Virus record (IMG/VR): IMGVR_UViG_3300019776_000110
Span: 1 to 35,084 of that record
Direction: 5' to 3' (one strand)
DNA: 35,084 nucleotides
Source: a virus
Shown here: positions 100 through 17,083 of the stretch, one piece after another
Numbering within the stretch: the stretch's first letter is position 1
Layout: each line of letters opens with the position of its first letter
The notes under the pieces: model-generated
What the model was told of the DNA's origin: nothing
Database searches by the model: none
The model's input: only the letters and a program-made list of their open reading frames with translations
Translations under genes and position numbers: made by a program

Positions 100-944
100 T
101 ATGGAGCAAATGAAAGATTTGGAGAACCTTTGTCGTTTGCTTTGGCTACGCTTAAATAACGGTCATATTCTTGTTGTAGAGATGTCGTATCAAAACCTTT
201 AATCTGCCAATATCTTAGCTTTGTGCCAAGAATCATAATTTGGTCATCAAATACAGTTGTGTCTGTATCAGCAGTAAAGCTGTTCTTAATAACATCGCTT
301 GAGCTTCTTGCCCATCCCTTAGAACGGTACTCAAAGCCTAAATATTCCTGAGTTGTAGGCATTGGCCATACTTGGAAATAACCGCCAAGAATACGCCAAC
401 GAATACGAGGGCCAGTTGAAATATAGCCAGACTTTAACCATTGCCATTGTTGAGCATCTTCAGGCCCTAACATCATCCAATGCTTAGTTTTATCCCATTG
501 AGTGCGGTCTGTAATGGTTTCGTAATCAGGTGGTAAATCATACTTAGTTTGGCAAAAGTTAATAGTTCCAGTAGCAGTTGCGCTAGATTTCTGATTAACT
601 GTTACTTGCGTAGCGCTATCAACGCTAACAATAGTCGTGTCTTGATTGATGCCTTCGCCTTGCAACATGAACTTATCGCTAAGTCCTTCTGTGCTGCTTA
701 GACCTGTAATCTGGTAGCTTCCCTCAGTTGTCGTGCCTGTGTATGAATAAGCCTGTGTATAAAAGCGATATTCGTACTCTAATGCTCTCCAGTCATATTC
801 TTTGGTCAAGTTATACCCTTGACGATTCATAAGCGCTAAAAGCTGAATCGTGTCTTGGTTGGTATTACCAGCAACATAAGTAGGAGCGACTAATCCAAGT
901 TCATTAGAAACTTCTTGAATTAGGGTTAGCATCGTAGATGACAT
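42..944 (-). CDS. Head-tail adaptor / neck protein (probable P22 gp4 / tail tubular A type)
   Basis: A 300-residue protein that probably closes the head-to-tail junction below the portal. The N-terminal 60 residues (helical, with LMNRQGYNLTKEYDWRAL) resemble adaptor proteins of short-tailed phages; the middle is beta-rich with Ser/Thr stretches. It lies directly before the gp10-like stabilisation protein when the circle is closed, which is the order expected for neck genes. The ATG at 944 has AAAGGA just upstream. A strong TATAAT promoter and a hairpin precede it. Its stop codon overlaps the stop of the convergent HNH gene by two bases (TTTAA at 41-45). The family assignment rests on position and general resemblance, not on a diagnostic motif. 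Confidence 0.6.
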   Translation of the reverse strand: MSSTMLTLIQEVSNELGLVAPTYVAGNTNQDTIQLLALMNRQGYNLTKEYDWRALEYEYRFYTQAYSYTGTTTEGSYQITGLSSTEGLSDKFMLQGEGINQDTTIVSVDSATQVTVNQKSSATATGTINFCQTKYDLPPDYETITDRTQWDKTKHWMMLGPEDAQQWQWLKSGYISTGPRIRWRILGGYFQVWPMPTTQEYLGFEYRSKGWARSSSDVIKNSFTADTDTTVFDDQIMILGTKLRYWQIKGFDTTSLQQEYDRYLSVAKANDKGSPNLSFAPYPSEVLISWANIPDTSYGS

Positions 945-971
945 GGGGAATCCTTTACTTTAGTGGTTTGC

Positions 972-1005
972 ACCCTAAGTAATTAAGGTTTTCTTAATTA
1001 TAGCA
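972..1005 (-). promoter_or_regulatory. Promoter with 5' stem-loop for the neck gene
   Basis: On the minus strand a perfect TATAAT (1002-997) is preceded by TG at the extended -10 position (1005-1004); no clear -35 is visible. Seven bases further on, 989-972 form ACCTTAATTACTTAGGGT, a 7-bp stem (one G-U pair) with a TTAC loop placed at the expected transcript start. It sits just downstream of the terminator at 1021-1042, so it would restart transcription of the neck and tail genes. Confidence 0.65.
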
Positions 1006-1020
1006 ATTACTACATAAAAG

Positions 1021-1042
1021 AAAAGAGGGTTTCCCCTCTTTT
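1021..1042 (-). terminator. Rho-independent terminator
   Basis: A perfect 9-bp stem (AAAAGAGGG against CCCTCTTTT) closed by a four-base loop reading GAAA on the minus strand, followed by CTTTT. It begins directly after the stop of the 209-residue gene and would end the capsid-side transcript. It is nearly symmetric, but no gene on the plus strand needs it. Confidence 0.8.
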
Positions 1043-1043
1043 G

Positions 1044-1673
1044 TCATTCTTCTACTTCTTCTTTTACTTTCTTAGCTCTTGGCTTCTTTTCAGTTGCTAT
1101 TGCTAATAAAGCTTGCATTTGAGCTTGCATCTCTGCGAGCTTTTTATCGGTTTCTTCTTTGATTTTGGCGTTTTCTTCACGCAGTTGAGCCAATTCTTGC
1201 TCTCTCTTAGCTACTTCTGCTGAATCATCAGCAAGACTTAGGAAAGCTTTGGCTTTATCTCGTAAAGCATAACCAGAACTACCAGCAACCATGCCTAGCT
1301 TTTGTAGTTGTTGGTCATTAGCGTTAGCCAAAAGTTCTACTGTATAAAACTTAAGGGCTTTTAATTCTTCCGCTTGAGCAGATGTCAATAATGGCCACTC
1401 AGTTACTGGAGTACCAACCATTTTTACATCATTAGCGTGTTTGTTCATAAAGTGCGCCCAATGTTTAGGGAATCTAGCTTTATGGTCATCTCTAGCAATC
1501 GTATCAATAATGGTTAATTGATCGCTAGGTGTGTGAATTTTGACATAAACCACATCTTCAAATATGGGTCTGCCAGCTTCTTGTGAAGCAAATTCCTGTT
1601 TAACAGGTTTTGAGTAAAACTCAACATACAGATTTTCATCTGCGCTGCGTGTATCGCTTTCGATTCTTGCCAT
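1044..1673 (-). CDS. Probable virion-associated protein with C-terminal coiled coil
   Basis: A 209-residue protein of no recognised function. The N-terminal half is a mixed domain containing HWAHFMNKH; residues 150-200 are a heptad-like Glu/Lys/Gln coiled coil (AKREQELAQLREENAKIK), ending in a Lys/Glu-rich tail. Similar proteins commonly sit between the capsid and neck genes of short-tailed phages, which suggests a head-completion or minor structural role. The ATG at 1673 has GGAG eight bases upstream. It lies between two terminators, so it may depend on read-through. Confidence 0.55.
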   Translation of the reverse strand: MARIESDTRSADENLYVEFYSKPVKQEFASQEAGRPIFEDVVYVKIHTPSDQLTIIDTIARDDHKARFPKHWAHFMNKHANDVKMVGTPVTEWPLLTSAQAEELKALKFYTVELLANANDQQLQKLGMVAGSSGYALRDKAKAFLSLADDSAEVAKREQELAQLREENAKIKEETDKKLAEMQAQMQALLAIATEKKPRAKKVKEEVEE

Positions 1674-1706
1674 TTTAATTCTCCAAGTATTTGGGTTATT
1701 AAGGTT

Positions 1707-1742
1707 AAAAAAAAGGGAATCCCCCGATTAAGGGGAACTCCC
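1707..1742 (-). terminator. Strong rho-independent terminator after the capsid genes
   Basis: On the minus strand GGGA and TCCCC pair with GGGGGA and TCCC as a two-part stem (1742-1715), followed directly by eight U residues (1714-1707). It lies 17 bp after the stop of the 98-residue head protein. It probably lowers expression of downstream genes relative to the abundantly needed capsid proteins. Confidence 0.85.
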
Positions 1743-1759
1743 ATTACTGCATTACTTGA

Positions 1760-2056
1760 TTAAACAGATGTAGCTGCAAACCAAGCGTAATCGCCAGAAG
1801 CCATAGTAGTCGCTGGGCTTGTGTAAGAACCGCCAGAAGCAGTTACTACAAAAGTTGAAGCGTTAATAGAGCAAGTAGCTGTTGAAGCTGTAATAGCTGC
1901 GCCAGCCTTAGCGAAAACATAACGCTTACCATCAGAACCAAACACTTCAGCACCTAAAGGGCCGAATGTTGGAACTGTTGTACCAGCGCTGTTTGGGTTA
2001 GTCGTAGTTAAACCAACAAGGTCTACACCAGACAAAGGGGTAATTGTATATGCCAT
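1760..2056 (-). CDS. Small head protein, possible capsid decoration protein
   Basis: A 98-residue protein, almost free of charge and rich in Ala, Thr, Ser and Gly, with alternating beta-type segments (AAITASTATCSINASTFVVT). It directly follows the major capsid gene and is cut off from later genes by a strong terminator, so it is co-expressed with the capsid protein at high level. That position and composition fit a capsid decoration or head-stabilising protein, but no family motif was recognised. ATG at 2056 with AAGGAAAA upstream. Confidence 0.5.
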   Translation of the reverse strand: MAYTITPLSGVDLVGLTTTNPNSAGTTVPTFGPLGAEVFGSDGKRYVFAKAGAAITASTATCSINASTFVVTASGGSYTSPATTMASGDYAWFAATSV

Positions 2057-2083
2057 GATAATTTTCCTTAAATGTTAGTTCGA

Positions 2084-2995
2084 TTAAGCAATCAAAACGC
2101 CCTGTAAGAAGCTGTTTGATGTAGTAAGATTGCCGGCCCAGCCAAATAATTTGACGATGGCGTCTTGGTTTATCGACTGACGCTCACCACCGATAGGCAC
2201 AAAATTACGCTCTTTATGTGGACGTAAGAAGATGTAGTTAGTGTTCAAGAACCACATATGGTTAGCTGTAGCTTGTGAGCCATAACCACCACCAAGAACC
2301 ACATCAGCAGATGTACCACCACCGTAGAACTTCAATGAAGCGAAACCAGCAGCTGCTGATTCTTCAGAAGTGATACGTTGGATAGCTTGCAATGACTGAA
2401 CATACAATGAGTAGTAGTTATTGTCAGCTACGATTAAGTCAGCTTTGTCTGTACCACGAACTAATTGGATAGCCAAAGAAGTCATGTATTTCTGAATGTT
2501 AGTGTAAGCAACAGCAGCACCACCATCAGCAACACCAGCATACTTCTTAGATTGCCAGAAAGCCCAGTTAGCACGGTTAATACCACCGTAAGTACCAGTA
2601 GTCGGATCATCAGGTACAGCGGCTGCTAGACCAGTAATGTTCTTACCACCGTTACCAGTACCGTCAAGGTACAAGTCACCAGAAATGCGGTTTAACAAAC
2701 GAGCTTCAGAAACTTGCATACGACCATCTAACAAGTCGATGATTGCTTCTTTAGAGCTGTTTTGTAACATTTCTAGACCAGACATAGTAACCGCATCAGC
2801 GTACTGAGTAATTGAATACTGAGCAGCAGAAATTGGGCTATCTGGTTGAATATTGATAACTTCGTAGCCAGAGTAGCTATTTGCGTTATTAGTATTCGGG
2901 TCGTTATACATAATCTCTTCAAGAATTACGTTACCGCCTGAGAATGGGCGAATGTTGCCTTTTTTCTCAAGTCTTTGAAGAATTGCGTTGTTTTG
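2084..2995 (-). CDS. Major capsid protein, exon 2 (residues 29-331)
   Basis: The second exon of the major capsid protein: join 3833-3750 and 2995-2084 gives 331 residues. It starts CAA AAC AAC, continuing the exon-1 frame into ADNLT-QNNAILQRL, a sequence like the conserved N-terminal ADNxTxNNALL of one family of about 330-residue phage capsid proteins. Further segments such as FSGG, YSGYE and the region after VTMSGLEMLQNSSKEAIIDLL also fit. An HK97-type fold is assumed from the family. The in-frame GTG at 2998 is not a real start: its last G (2996) is the terminal G of a group I intron. Scaffold lies upstream and a small head protein downstream. Confidence 0.85.
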   Translation of the reverse strand, partial: QNNAILQRLEKKGNIRPFSGGNVILEEIMYNDPNTNNANSYSGYEVINIQPDSPISAAQYSITQYADAVTMSGLEMLQNSSKEAIIDLLDGRMQVSEARLLNRISGDLYLDGTGNGGKNITGLAAAVPDDPTTGTYGGINRANWAFWQSKKYAGVADGGAAVAYTNIQKYMTSLAIQLVRGTDKADLIVADNNYYSLYVQSLQAIQRITSEESAAAGFASLKFYGGGTSADVVLGGGYGSQATANHMWFLNTNYIFLRPHKERNFVPIGGERQSINQDAIVKLFGWAGNLTTSNSFLQGVLIA

Positions 2996-3749
2996 CACTT
3001 TTTTACGTCTTCGGCTCTTTATCCGAAGCTCCTGAATATTCCTATTCAGAGAAGACTATATCATCAAGTCTTATATCTCAATTCACAAGCCCTTTTACCA
3101 CCTAATGATGCTGCTTCTAGTGATGGTTTTTGACCAAGACGCTTTTTTGTTGCACTAATCTTTGCGCCATGATTTTTAGGCTTGCCTAACTGAGCAAGTC
3201 TACGCTTTTCTATTTCCTCAGGGCTTTGTTTTCTACCTTTATTGGAGTAGCTTCCAAAACCTTTTTTAACAGCCATAAACGAATTCAGATTGGTGTTGTA
3301 TAAGCGTTTTTGTTCTTCAAAAATCTTAAACCATTTCAATTCTGCTTCTCGTTTCTCTATTACTGAGGCAGTAGCTGGTAATTCTTCTAGCACCATGATG
3401 TTAAATGCATCTTTACCGTATTTATCCCATCCTTCTTGCAATCCCTTTTCGTTGTGCTTGTGATTATTAAGCAAACAACGGTGTTCTCGCATCCGTTTGA
3501 GCAAATTGGCTGAAGTACATCCAACATATGCCATCCCATCTACTGTATTACCTAAAGCGTAAATCTTAATCATTCGGGATTCCCCTCTGTAATTTATAAA
3601 ACCTGTCGGGCGCTCGTGTCAGGATTATTCTTTCGTCACCTGTTAGTCGTTACACCTTCCAAAGACCTTTTACATTCTCTGGCTTGGCTCGGTATTGTCC
3701 GTTCTGGATGTCCACCGAATTCACCCGATTTTATACTTGGCCCAAATTA
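2996..3749 (-). ncRNA. Group IA self-splicing intron in the major capsid gene
   Basis: The 754-nt intron begins TAATTTGGGCCAAGTATAA, much like the T4 td intron start, and ends with G (2996). Visible core, in minus-strand order: P1 pairs exon CUUGACU with intron GGCCAAG including the U-G at the splice site; P3 TCGGGTG (3728-3722) pairs with CGCCCGA (3612-3606); P4 uses CGGT and ACCG; P7 GACTA (3648-3644) pairs with TAGTC in GATATAGTC (3058-3054). Extra hairpin sequence between P7 and P3' (CAGG...CCTG) marks subgroup IA. After P7' come two short hairpins, CTGAATA/TATTCAG and CTTCGG/CCGAAG. The P8 region holds the GIY-YIG gene. Exact ends are inferred from the pairing and the protein frame. Confidence 0.92.
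3064..3573 (-). CDS. Intron-encoded GIY-YIG homing endonuclease
   Basis: 169 residues. The N-terminal GIY-YIG nuclease domain shows KIYAL (3-7), AYVGCTS (15-21) and RMREH (27-31); the first Gly of GIY is Lys here. Residues about 100-165 hold repeated NUMOD3-type DNA-binding segments (GRKQSPEEIEKRRLAQLGK and a similar GAKISATKKRLGQK). Such enzymes cut intron-less alleles so that the intron is copied in; the target here would be the capsid gene near the exon junction. The gene lies in the P8 region and its last codons run up to the P7' strand. GAGGGG is its ribosome-binding site, but GGG/CCC within GGGGAATCCC can pair, partly hiding it. ATG at 3573. Confidence 0.9.
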   Translation of the reverse strand: MIKIYALGNTVDGMAYVGCTSANLLKRMREHRCLLNNHKHNEKGLQEGWDKYGKDAFNIMVLEELPATASVIEKREAELKWFKIFEEQKRLYNTNLNSFMAVKKGFGSYSNKGRKQSPEEIEKRRLAQLGKPKNHGAKISATKKRLGQKPSLEAASLGGKRACELRYKT

Positions 3750-3833
3750 AGTCAAGTTGTCTGCCAATTCACCGCTACGAGATTGAATAGTCGTTGCGAT
3801 GATGTCGGTAATCGCTGAGTTAGCAAATCCCAT
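3750..3833 (-). CDS. Major capsid protein, exon 1 (residues 1-28)
   Basis: ATG at 3833 with AAAGGAT seven bases upstream; encodes MGFANSAITDIIATTIQSRS then GELADNLT, after which the genomic frame meets TAA at the first intron bases. The 28 codons are 84 nt, so exon 2 continues in phase. The last exon base is U (3750), which pairs as the U-G wobble typical of group I 5' splice sites. Without splicing only a 28-residue peptide is made from this start, so capsid production depends on the intron. Confidence 0.85.
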
Positions 3834-14591: not shown

Positions 14592-14755
14592 AATTCTAAT
14601 AATCCTTCTTCTAATCGTTTACGGGCTTTTGATCCACGTTTTTGTTCTGCAAGTTCAAGGTATTTTCTGCGTTCAGGTAATATTAAACTTGCTATCCAAC
14701 GTATTTCGCACTCATGCCGATATTGGTCTGAATTTTTATCATCAAATAAGTCCAT
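14573..14755 (-). CDS. Small protein, possibly DUF7696-like
   Basis: 60 residues. The pattern RHECEIRWIA, RRKYLELAEQKRGSKARKRL resembles a small family seen in phages and provisionally matched to DUF7696; the function is unknown. It starts 14 bases inside the end of the methyltransferase gene. Confidence 0.55.
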   Translation of the reverse strand: MDLFDDKNSDQYRHECEIRWIASLILPERRKYLELAEQKRGSKARKRLEEGLLELWKLKK

Positions 14756-15986
14756 CTTCTACCATTTGAATTCGATTGCCTATCCATTTCATTACAGGAA
14801 CTGCCATTGAGTTACCTAATGCTTTGTATCTTGGGCCATCAGGGCAGTTTTCTTTGATATTAGTATAGTTATCAGGAAATCCTTGCAGTCTTTCACATTC
14901 AACAGGAGTTAATCTGCGAACTGCCATGCTTTGAATAACACCACCTACATGATCAATGCAACCTGTTCCACGAACTGTTTGAGTTGTTTTATTGTTTGTA
15001 GTTCCATTGTAAGTATCAACTCCAACTGCTATTTGTTGATCCTGTAAAGTTGATAAAGTAAATGCTTTTTCATCCTGACCAAGATAACCCTTACCGCCAC
15101 CTTCGCAACCCCCTCTGACTTTAAAAGCATGGGCTAATGGCACATTATTTCCACCTGTTCCCCATCTAGCAGTTACAGTAGGGCTAATATCAACAGGTTT
15201 TATTCTGCTATCCGTTCCATGATTTTCATAAACTTGGGCCACCATTTTTGCCATATCTGGATTGCAGTCATCAGCACTAATGCCTTTGTAATCTCTAGCA
15301 GTTAATGGACCACTAATTTTAGTGGCAATCATATTGAATCCATTAGTTTTACTGTAGTCATTATTTGTTGTTTGGAAACCGTTAGCAATGCTTGGTACAA
15401 AGGTGGTGGTAGTTGTTTCCCCCTTTTTTCTGCTCTTTTTAGAATCCCCTGACAAGCTTTCGAACTCAAATAATACTTTTGCGGTAGGTTTCCAATCTCC
15501 AAGATGTCCGACAACAAACACTCTTCTTCTGCGCTGTGCGACTCCGAAGTGTTGAGCATCCAACACTCTGTAGCTGAACCCATACCCGAGTTCAACCAAC
15601 GCCCCGAGGAAGGATCCAAAATCCCGTCCTTTGCCTGAACTGAGGACACCCGGCACGTTTTCCCAAACGAACCACTTGGGTCTAAACTTGTCAAGAATTC
15701 CACAATAGGTGAGTGCAAGATTTCCCCTTGGGTCATCAAGTCCTTTTCTAAGACCTGCAACGCTAAATGATTGACAGGGAGTTCCTCCGACCAAAAGTCC
15801 AATTGTTCCAATTTCCCACTCCTTATATTTAGTCATATCGCCCATATTTGGGACTAATGGATAATGATGTTTTAATACTTCACTAGGAAATTTCTCAATT
15901 TCACTATAAGCAGCAGCTTCCCAACCCATGTCATGCCAAGCAACTGTCGCAGCTTCTATTCCAGAGCATACTGAAAGGTATCTCAT
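14742..15986 (-). CDS. dcm: C5-cytosine DNA methyltransferase (Dcm type)
   Basis: 414 residues from ATG 15986. All key blocks are present: AdoMet-binding YLSVCSGIEAATVAW (3-17), catalytic GGTPCQSFSVAG with Cys71, WENVPGV (108-114, the Glu-Asn-Val block), QRRRRVFVVG (151-160), then a long variable target-recognition region, and at the end RRLTPVECERLQGFPD and GNSMAVPVMKWIGNRI. No cognate restriction enzyme is nearby, so it is an orphan that probably protects phage DNA. The start overlaps the upstream gene as ATGA; the frame runs 11 codons further up, without need. The recognition site cannot be read from sequence. Confidence 0.93.
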   Translation of the reverse strand: MRYLSVCSGIEAATVAWHDMGWEAAAYSEIEKFPSEVLKHHYPLVPNMGDMTKYKEWEIGTIGLLVGGTPCQSFSVAGLRKGLDDPRGNLALTYCGILDKFRPKWFVWENVPGVLSSGKGRDFGSFLGALVELGYGFSYRVLDAQHFGVAQRRRRVFVVGHLGDWKPTAKVLFEFESLSGDSKKSRKKGETTTTTFVPSIANGFQTTNNDYSKTNGFNMIATKISGPLTARDYKGISADDCNPDMAKMVAQVYENHGTDSRIKPVDISPTVTARWGTGGNNVPLAHAFKVRGGCEGGGKGYLGQDEKAFTLSTLQDQQIAVGVDTYNGTTNNKTTQTVRGTGCIDHVGGVIQSMAVRRLTPVECERLQGFPDNYTNIKENCPDGPRYKALGNSMAVPVMKWIGNRIQMVEDGLI

Positions 15987-16351
15987 GCCATCGCTTTCTT
16001 TGCCATAACTAGCAAACATTTTTCTTTTAATTGATGAAAAGTAAGACCTACACTATGAACTCCAAGTTCGGCAGCTTTAGCAACGATGCCAGCTTCTGTA
16101 GCCATCCATGATTTGTCTTCTTTGACTTTAACAGTCATGTCTAGCTCATCTTCCCAACGACCTTGATTGATCCATGTGGTTGCATGAGGTATGTATTCTG
16201 TTTCGGTGTTTTTTAGTTTCCAGTATTGGATATGGTTTGGTAATGCTTCTAAAGCATCTGCCTGTTTTAGCTTAGATAAGCGGTTCCACGCTTTTTCTGC
16301 CATTTTTTTACTTACTTTTCTAGGGTATAACTTCCAAAATTCATTAAACAT
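15983..16351 (-). CDS. Replication-protein C-terminal-like domain protein
   Basis: 122 residues. FWKLYPRKVSKKMAEKAWNR and YIPHATTWINQGRWEDEL are the hallmark of the C-terminal domain found in many phage replication initiators and DnaT-like proteins, where it binds DNA or partners. Here it stands alone without the usual N-terminal winged-helix. It may load host replication machinery, since the phage has no polymerase or helicase. It is the first gene of its operon, just after a promoter with a 5' hairpin. Confidence 0.75.
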   Translation of the reverse strand: MFNEFWKLYPRKVSKKMAEKAWNRLSKLKQADALEALPNHIQYWKLKNTETEYIPHATTWINQGRWEDELDMTVKVKEDKSWMATEAGIVAKAAELGVHSVGLTFHQLKEKCLLVMAKKAMA

Positions 16352-16410: not shown

Positions 16411-16652
16411 GTCTTTTTTATTTATTCTTATATATATATTTTTCCAATTCCTTTTTGGTGAACGAACCTAGCCCTTTCCTAGATTCGCCTTAATCTGTTT
16501 CCTTTTTGGAGCCACAGAACCCGTCAGTCTTGCGTTGAATAGGCACTAACTTCGCCACCTATATTTGAGCTGTTACATCAACTTTCCCCCAGTTGCTCTT
16601 GTATCTCAAATGCTGGTGTCGGTTCCCGCCCATTTAAGACCAAGCAGAAAAG
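16376..16652. other. Non-coding stretch with no supported gene
   Basis: No convincing gene on either strand. Apart from the promoter at its left edge, the minus strand has a 72-codon frame from ATG 16633 to TAA 16418 that is broken by TAG (16561-16559) and TAA (16492-16490), without a clear ribosome-binding site; it could be a decayed gene or chance. The short alternating TATATATATA tract at 16430-16440 is also present. Confidence 0.5.
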
Positions 16653-16787: not shown

Positions 16788-16815
16788 AGTATACCAACTT
16801 TTTAAATTACTGCAA
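16788..16815 (-). promoter_or_regulatory. Promoter-like sequence for the candidate small RNA
   Basis: Minus strand: TTGCAG (16815-16810), 16-bp spacer, then TATACT (16793-16788), with TGG before it as an extended -10. It overlaps the 3' end of the repressor gene. The predicted start is near 16781. Confidence 0.5.
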
Positions 16816-17034
16816 CTCAGGCCAAATAAATTTCCATGTTTTAGGGAACATAGCTTTTCTAGTCATCAAGCCGTGTGATTGCTTTTCAAGCTCTGCACCT
16901 AAAAACACTAGCTTGTCATAAGGAATACCATTCGATTTCCATTGACTAACTGCTGGTAGGCTAACTTCGCACATTTTGGCTACTTTAGTAACACCACCAA
17001 GCAAGAGAATAATTTGTTCGTCATTTAGCTTCAT
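16807..17034 (-). CDS. Cro/YdaS-like transcriptional repressor
   Basis: 75 residues. A helix-turn-helix with GGVTKVAKMCEVSLPAVSQW (recognition helix around SLPAVSQWKSNGIP) matches the small P22 Cro / YdaS type. It is the only gene reading left from the early control region and faces the early plus-strand promoter, the position of a Cro-like regulator. No CI-type partner or integrase was found, so lysogeny is unsupported. ATG at 17034 was preferred because the family normally begins here; a TTG 12 codons upstream is possible. There is no good ribosome-binding site. Confidence 0.8.
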   Translation of the reverse strand: MKLNDEQIILLLGGVTKVAKMCEVSLPAVSQWKSNGIPYDKLVFLGAELEKQSHGLMTRKAMFPKTWKFIWPELQ

Positions 17035-17054
17035 GTTAGAAATCTTAACAAAAT

Positions 17055-17083
17055 TAAATAAATTTATCAATACCTATTGACAA
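17055..17083 (-). promoter_or_regulatory. Probable repressor promoter
   Basis: Minus strand: TTGTCA (17083-17078), 17-bp spacer, TATTTA (17060-17055). The -35 overlaps the -35 of the divergent early promoter almost completely. The -10 is weak. A short inverted repeat, TGTTA/TAACA (17050-17034), then runs into the ATG. Confidence 0.4.

Follow-up and report, generated by a model that had tools for sequence, protein, structure and literature searches.

Our analysis of a 35,084-nt viral sequence (IMG/VR record IMGVR_UViG_3300019776_000110, positions 1 to 35,084; hereafter the window) indicates, at a probability that we put near 95%, that its major capsid gene is split by a mobile group IA intron, which would splice itself out of the message and encode the endonuclease that cleaves intron-free alleles and drives homing. 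The minus strand of the window carries a phage head module, where the capsid ORF opens at ATG 3833 and its frame is split by 754 nt (Table 1). The second exon matches the major head protein family phrog_9953 in a profile search (E 3.6e-95), with positions 30-328 of the 329 in the profile aligned to residues 2-304 of the ORF.

When T3750 is joined to C2995 the protein reads ADNLT|QNNA, and the capsid reads through ADNLT(Q/N)NNA without a break in all 80 of the closest relatives listed among viral contigs (the best 80 matches listed, 79-91% identical over exon 2). The full N-terminus is visible in 79 of these 80, with residues 1-28 near-invariant; the contig end cuts the N-terminus of the remaining one (L033), where LADNLT|QNNA is still present. 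At the DNA level, relatives have TTGACACAAAACAACGC or similar where the window has TTGACT, the insert and CAAAACAACGC. In 155 fetched loci, counting some contigs that were fetched twice, the capsid match is unbroken, starting no later than residue 20 and extending at least to residue 300. When isolated genomes were searched for prophage hosts, only two metagenome-assembled genomes matched, both with intron-free capsids. Empty sites in relatives thus define where splicing should occur, with no recourse to an RNA model, and joining the predicted exons restores the capsid protein exactly. This comparison with intron-less relatives had been proposed as a check in the original prediction, and it bears out the boundaries given there, the first exon of 28 codons, the join and the choice of a major capsid gene as host.

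Table 1. Coordinates of the split capsid gene, of the predicted intron and of inserts in related capsid genes (window positions unless a locus is named)
Feature	Position	Strand	Basis or remark
Capsid exon 1, MGFANSAITDIIATTIQSRSGELADNLT	3833..3750	-	28 codons; N-terminus contiguous with exon 2 in relatives
Capsid exon 2	2995..2084	-	303 codons and stop; begins QNNAILQRL at C2995; phrog_9953 match
Predicted group I intron, 754 nt	2996..3749	-	Empty-site comparison, RF00028 halves, R1 model, L125
P1	3736..3756	-	Exon CUUGACU with intron GGCCAAG, read from sequence
Core 5' half: P3, P4, P5, P6, P6a, P7 5' strand, P7.1/P7.2, P3 3' strand	3606..3728	-	R1, RF00028, covariation
P8 stem CAGGUUUUAUA / UAUAAGACUUG	3065..3605	-	Sequence and pairing; endonuclease ORF in loop
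J8/7, P7 3' strand (TATAGTC), P9 hairpin	3032..3064	-	RF00028 3' half; P9 covariation
P9.1-like hairpin CUUCGG AUAAAGAG CCGAAG	3007..3031	-	Sequence
Predicted GIY-YIG homing endonuclease ORF, 169 aa	3573..3064	-	PF01541, phrog_314, 1mk0
Leader AGAGGGGAATCCCGAATG, ending in the ORF start codon	3571..3588	-	Common to L420 (247-264)
Compact group I-like insert, ~240 nt	L303 2573-2811, L307 2573-2814, L304 126-367		ACGACTA and GATAGTC core strings

The first codon past exon 1 is an in-frame TAA, and the last base of the insert is G2996 (omega-G). P1 contains one A-C mismatch, and U3750 opposite a G gives a U-G pair at the 5' splice site; UUUG pairs with CAAA of exon 2 to form P10, as read from the sequence. 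All seven pairs of P3 (UCGGGUG/CGCCCGA) are formed. The hallmark of subgroup IA is an insertion of P7.1/P7.2 between P7 and P3; these helices are CAGG/CCUG in the window and have different pairs in relatives, and both covary (helices 6 and 7 of alignment A1). The predicted P3-P9 core, the U-G pair, the terminal G and the uninterrupted exon join place the insert in group I, and the extra P7.1/P7.2 helices place it in subgroup IA. The P1 and P3 pairings described at the outset are therefore present, P1 with its single mismatch, and the group IA class holds as well. An intein was considered and dropped, given the in-frame stops within the insert.

A pattern search of the viral collection for the ADNLT codons followed immediately by TAA returned L125 (IMGVR_UViG_3300035188_000148) as sole match, which makes the element a rare one at this precise position. 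The L125 intron lies in the same capsid gene (capsid ~75% identical), interrupts it at the identical nucleotide and likewise has a stop codon directly after exon 1. It shares with the window intron the P3-P9 layout and the P9.1 loop GGATAAAGAGCC, which is also found in L420, L222/L226 and many other introns, and core stretches of the two are 82-88% identical. Yet it spans only 241 nt and is ORF-less, its P8 being a short closed hairpin, whereas in the 754-nt intron of the window the P8 loop holds the endonuclease ORF. Relative to the window, pairs 1-2 of its P3 (CAGGGUG/CUCCCUG) are compensated and pair 6 is a U-U mismatch. The occurrence of an intron at the same nucleotide in an independent contig, together with junctions that yield exactly the protein of the relatives, makes it hardly credible that an intron fragment was fused to the capsid gene during assembly, even if only one viral contig underlies the record. 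P1 of L125 is paired throughout, in contrast with the A-C mismatch in the window, and this might mean that the window intron was once active but has lost the ability to splice, its phage lineage being damaged or dying out. We consider this very improbable, because the core helices that were tested are intact, and the capsid exons and the endonuclease ORF are open.

The covariance models agree with a group I intron opened by a gene. The Rfam search advocated in the original prediction had a mixed outcome: at the gathering score (cut-off 50 bits) RF00028 gave no match in the window, whereas the same-site intron of L125 scored 63.4 bits. Under relaxed limits, the window was matched in two halves, one upstream of the ORF (3731..3605, 30.6 bits, E 1e-5) and one at 3202..3032 (24.9 bits), the latter covering P9 and the genuine 3' strand of P7, with its upstream part running into the ORF. 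The match is split into two sub-threshold halves because a 513-nt loop carries the endonuclease gene. The window resembles in this respect the introns of a Bastillevirinae survey, where long endonuclease loops led to partial covariance matches only (PMC11878797).

We also used a model, R1, made with the P3-P7.2 structure from 17 same-core introns of other genes, leaving out the window and L125. It scored 76.1 bits on the 5' half of the window intron (E 1e-15) and 71.8 bits on L125. The training introns were gathered via a 20-nt motif that is also in the window, and hence the sequence part of R1 is not fully independent of the latter, whereas the covarying helices are. The modelled P3-P7.2 structure is retained in 98.1% of the cells of the alignment, cells changed on both sides are in excess (91 vs 29.5 in shuffles, 0/500), and so is the covariation score of alignment A1 (0.488 vs 0.157 shuffled, 0/500). 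A slide of the structure by a single column makes its support collapse. Across 24 introns P9 also covaries (e.g., CUGAAU/AUUCAG vs CUGCAU/AUGCAG).

Two other features of the minus strand were noticed. Rfam identified RF02932 (Betaproteobacteria-1 RNA, 96.6 bits) at 16519-16640, in the gap between the ORFs 16351..15983 and 17070..16807; this is a described RNA family, here in a phage. An ORF of 425 aa (14742-16019) is an apparent C5 cytosine DNA methyltransferase, judging by eye from its PCQSFS and ENV motifs.

The ORF in the P8 loop lies between the two ribozyme halves, and its last codons are part of the 3' strand of P8. It matches PF01541 above the cut-off (31.8 vs 22.6 bits, E 1.8e-7), the phage homing endonucleases of phrog_314 (E 2.9e-15) and, among solved structures, the catalytic domain of I-TevI (1mk0, E 2.4e-4; also aligned to 1ln0). 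The intron was expected to have its own endonuclease, and the predicted product is indeed an I-TevI-type GIY-YIG enzyme. Short peptide patterns of this protein retrieved no relative from the viral contigs; L420, described below, surfaced via the P9.1 motif. An exact search of the fetched loci with 17 nt of the leader preceding the ORF recovered L420 and the loci of the window itself, and no others. The GAGGGG in this leader is likely the ribosome site, and it overlaps a small GGG/CCC hairpin. A translation brake is reported for I-TevI, and the hairpin could perhaps play this role for the endonuclease of the window; we keep this regulatory reading as a lead only, because the fold is no better than that of shuffled sequences.

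The endonuclease might instead be a free-standing gene that cut the capsid gene in two, the capsid being translated from GTG 2998 without splicing. An ORF with this start is present, but no ribosome site is visible ahead of it, and the protein would lack the 28 N-terminal residues that are near-invariant in relatives. A free-standing gene would account neither for the ribozyme halves on both sides of the ORF nor for the intron of L125, which has no endonuclease at all. We thus regard this scenario as most unlikely.

Under the preferred reading, a mobile group IA intron, the element would be transcribed along with the head genes, and the ribozyme core would fold in the pre-mRNA and undergo GTP-dependent splicing, as its structure and family suggest. 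A cut after U3750 and ligation to C2995 would then produce a capsid protein of 331 residues. Since TAA follows the splice site, an unspliced message would give only a stub of 28 residues. Phages generally express their capsid more strongly than most other late proteins, and an intron in its gene must therefore splice efficiently to be tolerated. By analogy with the I-TevI family, the endonuclease would cut intron-free capsid alleles, whose repair would copy the intron into them.

The capsid location is not new. An endonuclease-bearing intron in the major capsid gene of mycobacteriophage LittleE was proven by RT-PCR and N-terminal sequencing, in a study that also cites a capsid-gene intron in the lactococcal phage Tuc2009 (PMC3706429). 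The two systems differ: the LittleE endonuclease is encoded on the opposite strand and is described as LAGLIDADG-like and HNH, whereas that of the window is GIY-YIG, and the LittleE intron is only 'most likely' group I (PMC3706429). The T4 td intron is also of group IA and has a GIY-YIG endonuclease, I-TevI, within it, but its host gene encodes thymidylate synthase and the catalytic domains of the two enzymes are only distantly alike (E 2.4e-4). The close resemblance to td initially claimed for the 5' sequence was not found: the sole notable nucleotide match covers 19 nt around P7'/P9, and we dropped the idea of a close kinship on this account. Introns of Streptococcus thermophilus phages, which we take to be lysin-gene introns, match over a 74-nt core at 79% identity (4% of the query covered) and come from another host. 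The predicted intron is most closely related to phage introns whose core is of the ACGGACAATACCGAGCCAAG family, rather than to td. A search with the exact 5' boundary pattern gave four matches, all in an unrelated gene, which we discarded as chance.

One related element is found in a distant capsid. L420 has a phrog_9953 capsid that is 35% identical to that of the window, with a group I intron that passes the RF00028 threshold at 63.7 bits and lies after residue 27, i.e., three bases upstream of the position in the window, after residue 28. Its GIY-YIG ORF occupies the same place in P8 and is 49% identical to the one of the window, and both ORFs are preceded by an identical leader, AGAGGGGAATCCCGAATG. 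This suggests that a single endonuclease lineage has stayed with, or returned to, the capsid site.

Other capsid genes are interrupted as well. In L303, L304 and L307, phrog_9953 capsids have compact inserts of a different type after residue 53 (Table 1); Rfam matched those of L303 and L304 neither at the gathering score nor at E 0.01, nor that of L307 at the gathering score, the only one applied to it. Further introns of this family fall in the region of residues 58-97 (L347, L374, L382, L422). Introns also occur in a second capsid family, phrog_1005: that of L222/L226, of the same type as in the window, has its GIY-YIG ORF 5' of the core, and the L429 capsid gene (740-2420, minus strand) has three group I introns, two of which sandwich an exon of 18 residues, CYPNKLVLSPDAFNALKR. 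Stretches of ~4 kb around capsid exons contain at least six group I introns identified by Rfam in L415 (281-4251) and eight P7'/P9.1 motifs in L390 (1510-5179). In a third family, phrog_283, an intron core lies just 5' of a truncated capsid frame in L208 and L229, whose first exons were not located. Intron relatives are also present in DNA polymerase-like, portal-like and terminase-like genes, named from reading their translations. Capsid genes had been described to us as less common hosts; with introns in three capsid families here and in LittleE (PMC3706429), they are less rare than suggested. A partial literature collection contained no report of such recurrence across capsid genes.

We lean, with some reserve, towards a joint reading of these observations, in which homing introns would have invaded the major capsid genes of uncultured phages time and again: a single GIY-YIG lineage would track the ADN(L/V) site across capsids that are 35% identical, and other introns would have entered further sites and two unrelated families, with up to three per gene. 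The empty site, the ORF-less intron and the endonuclease-bearing intron at one position, together with the neighbour in a distant capsid, form a natural series that suits tests of endonuclease gain and loss and of the cost of splicing. Gene callers miss or truncate capsids split in this way. If the joint reading is true, virion production in these phages relies on the ribozyme splicing of a heavily used late message.
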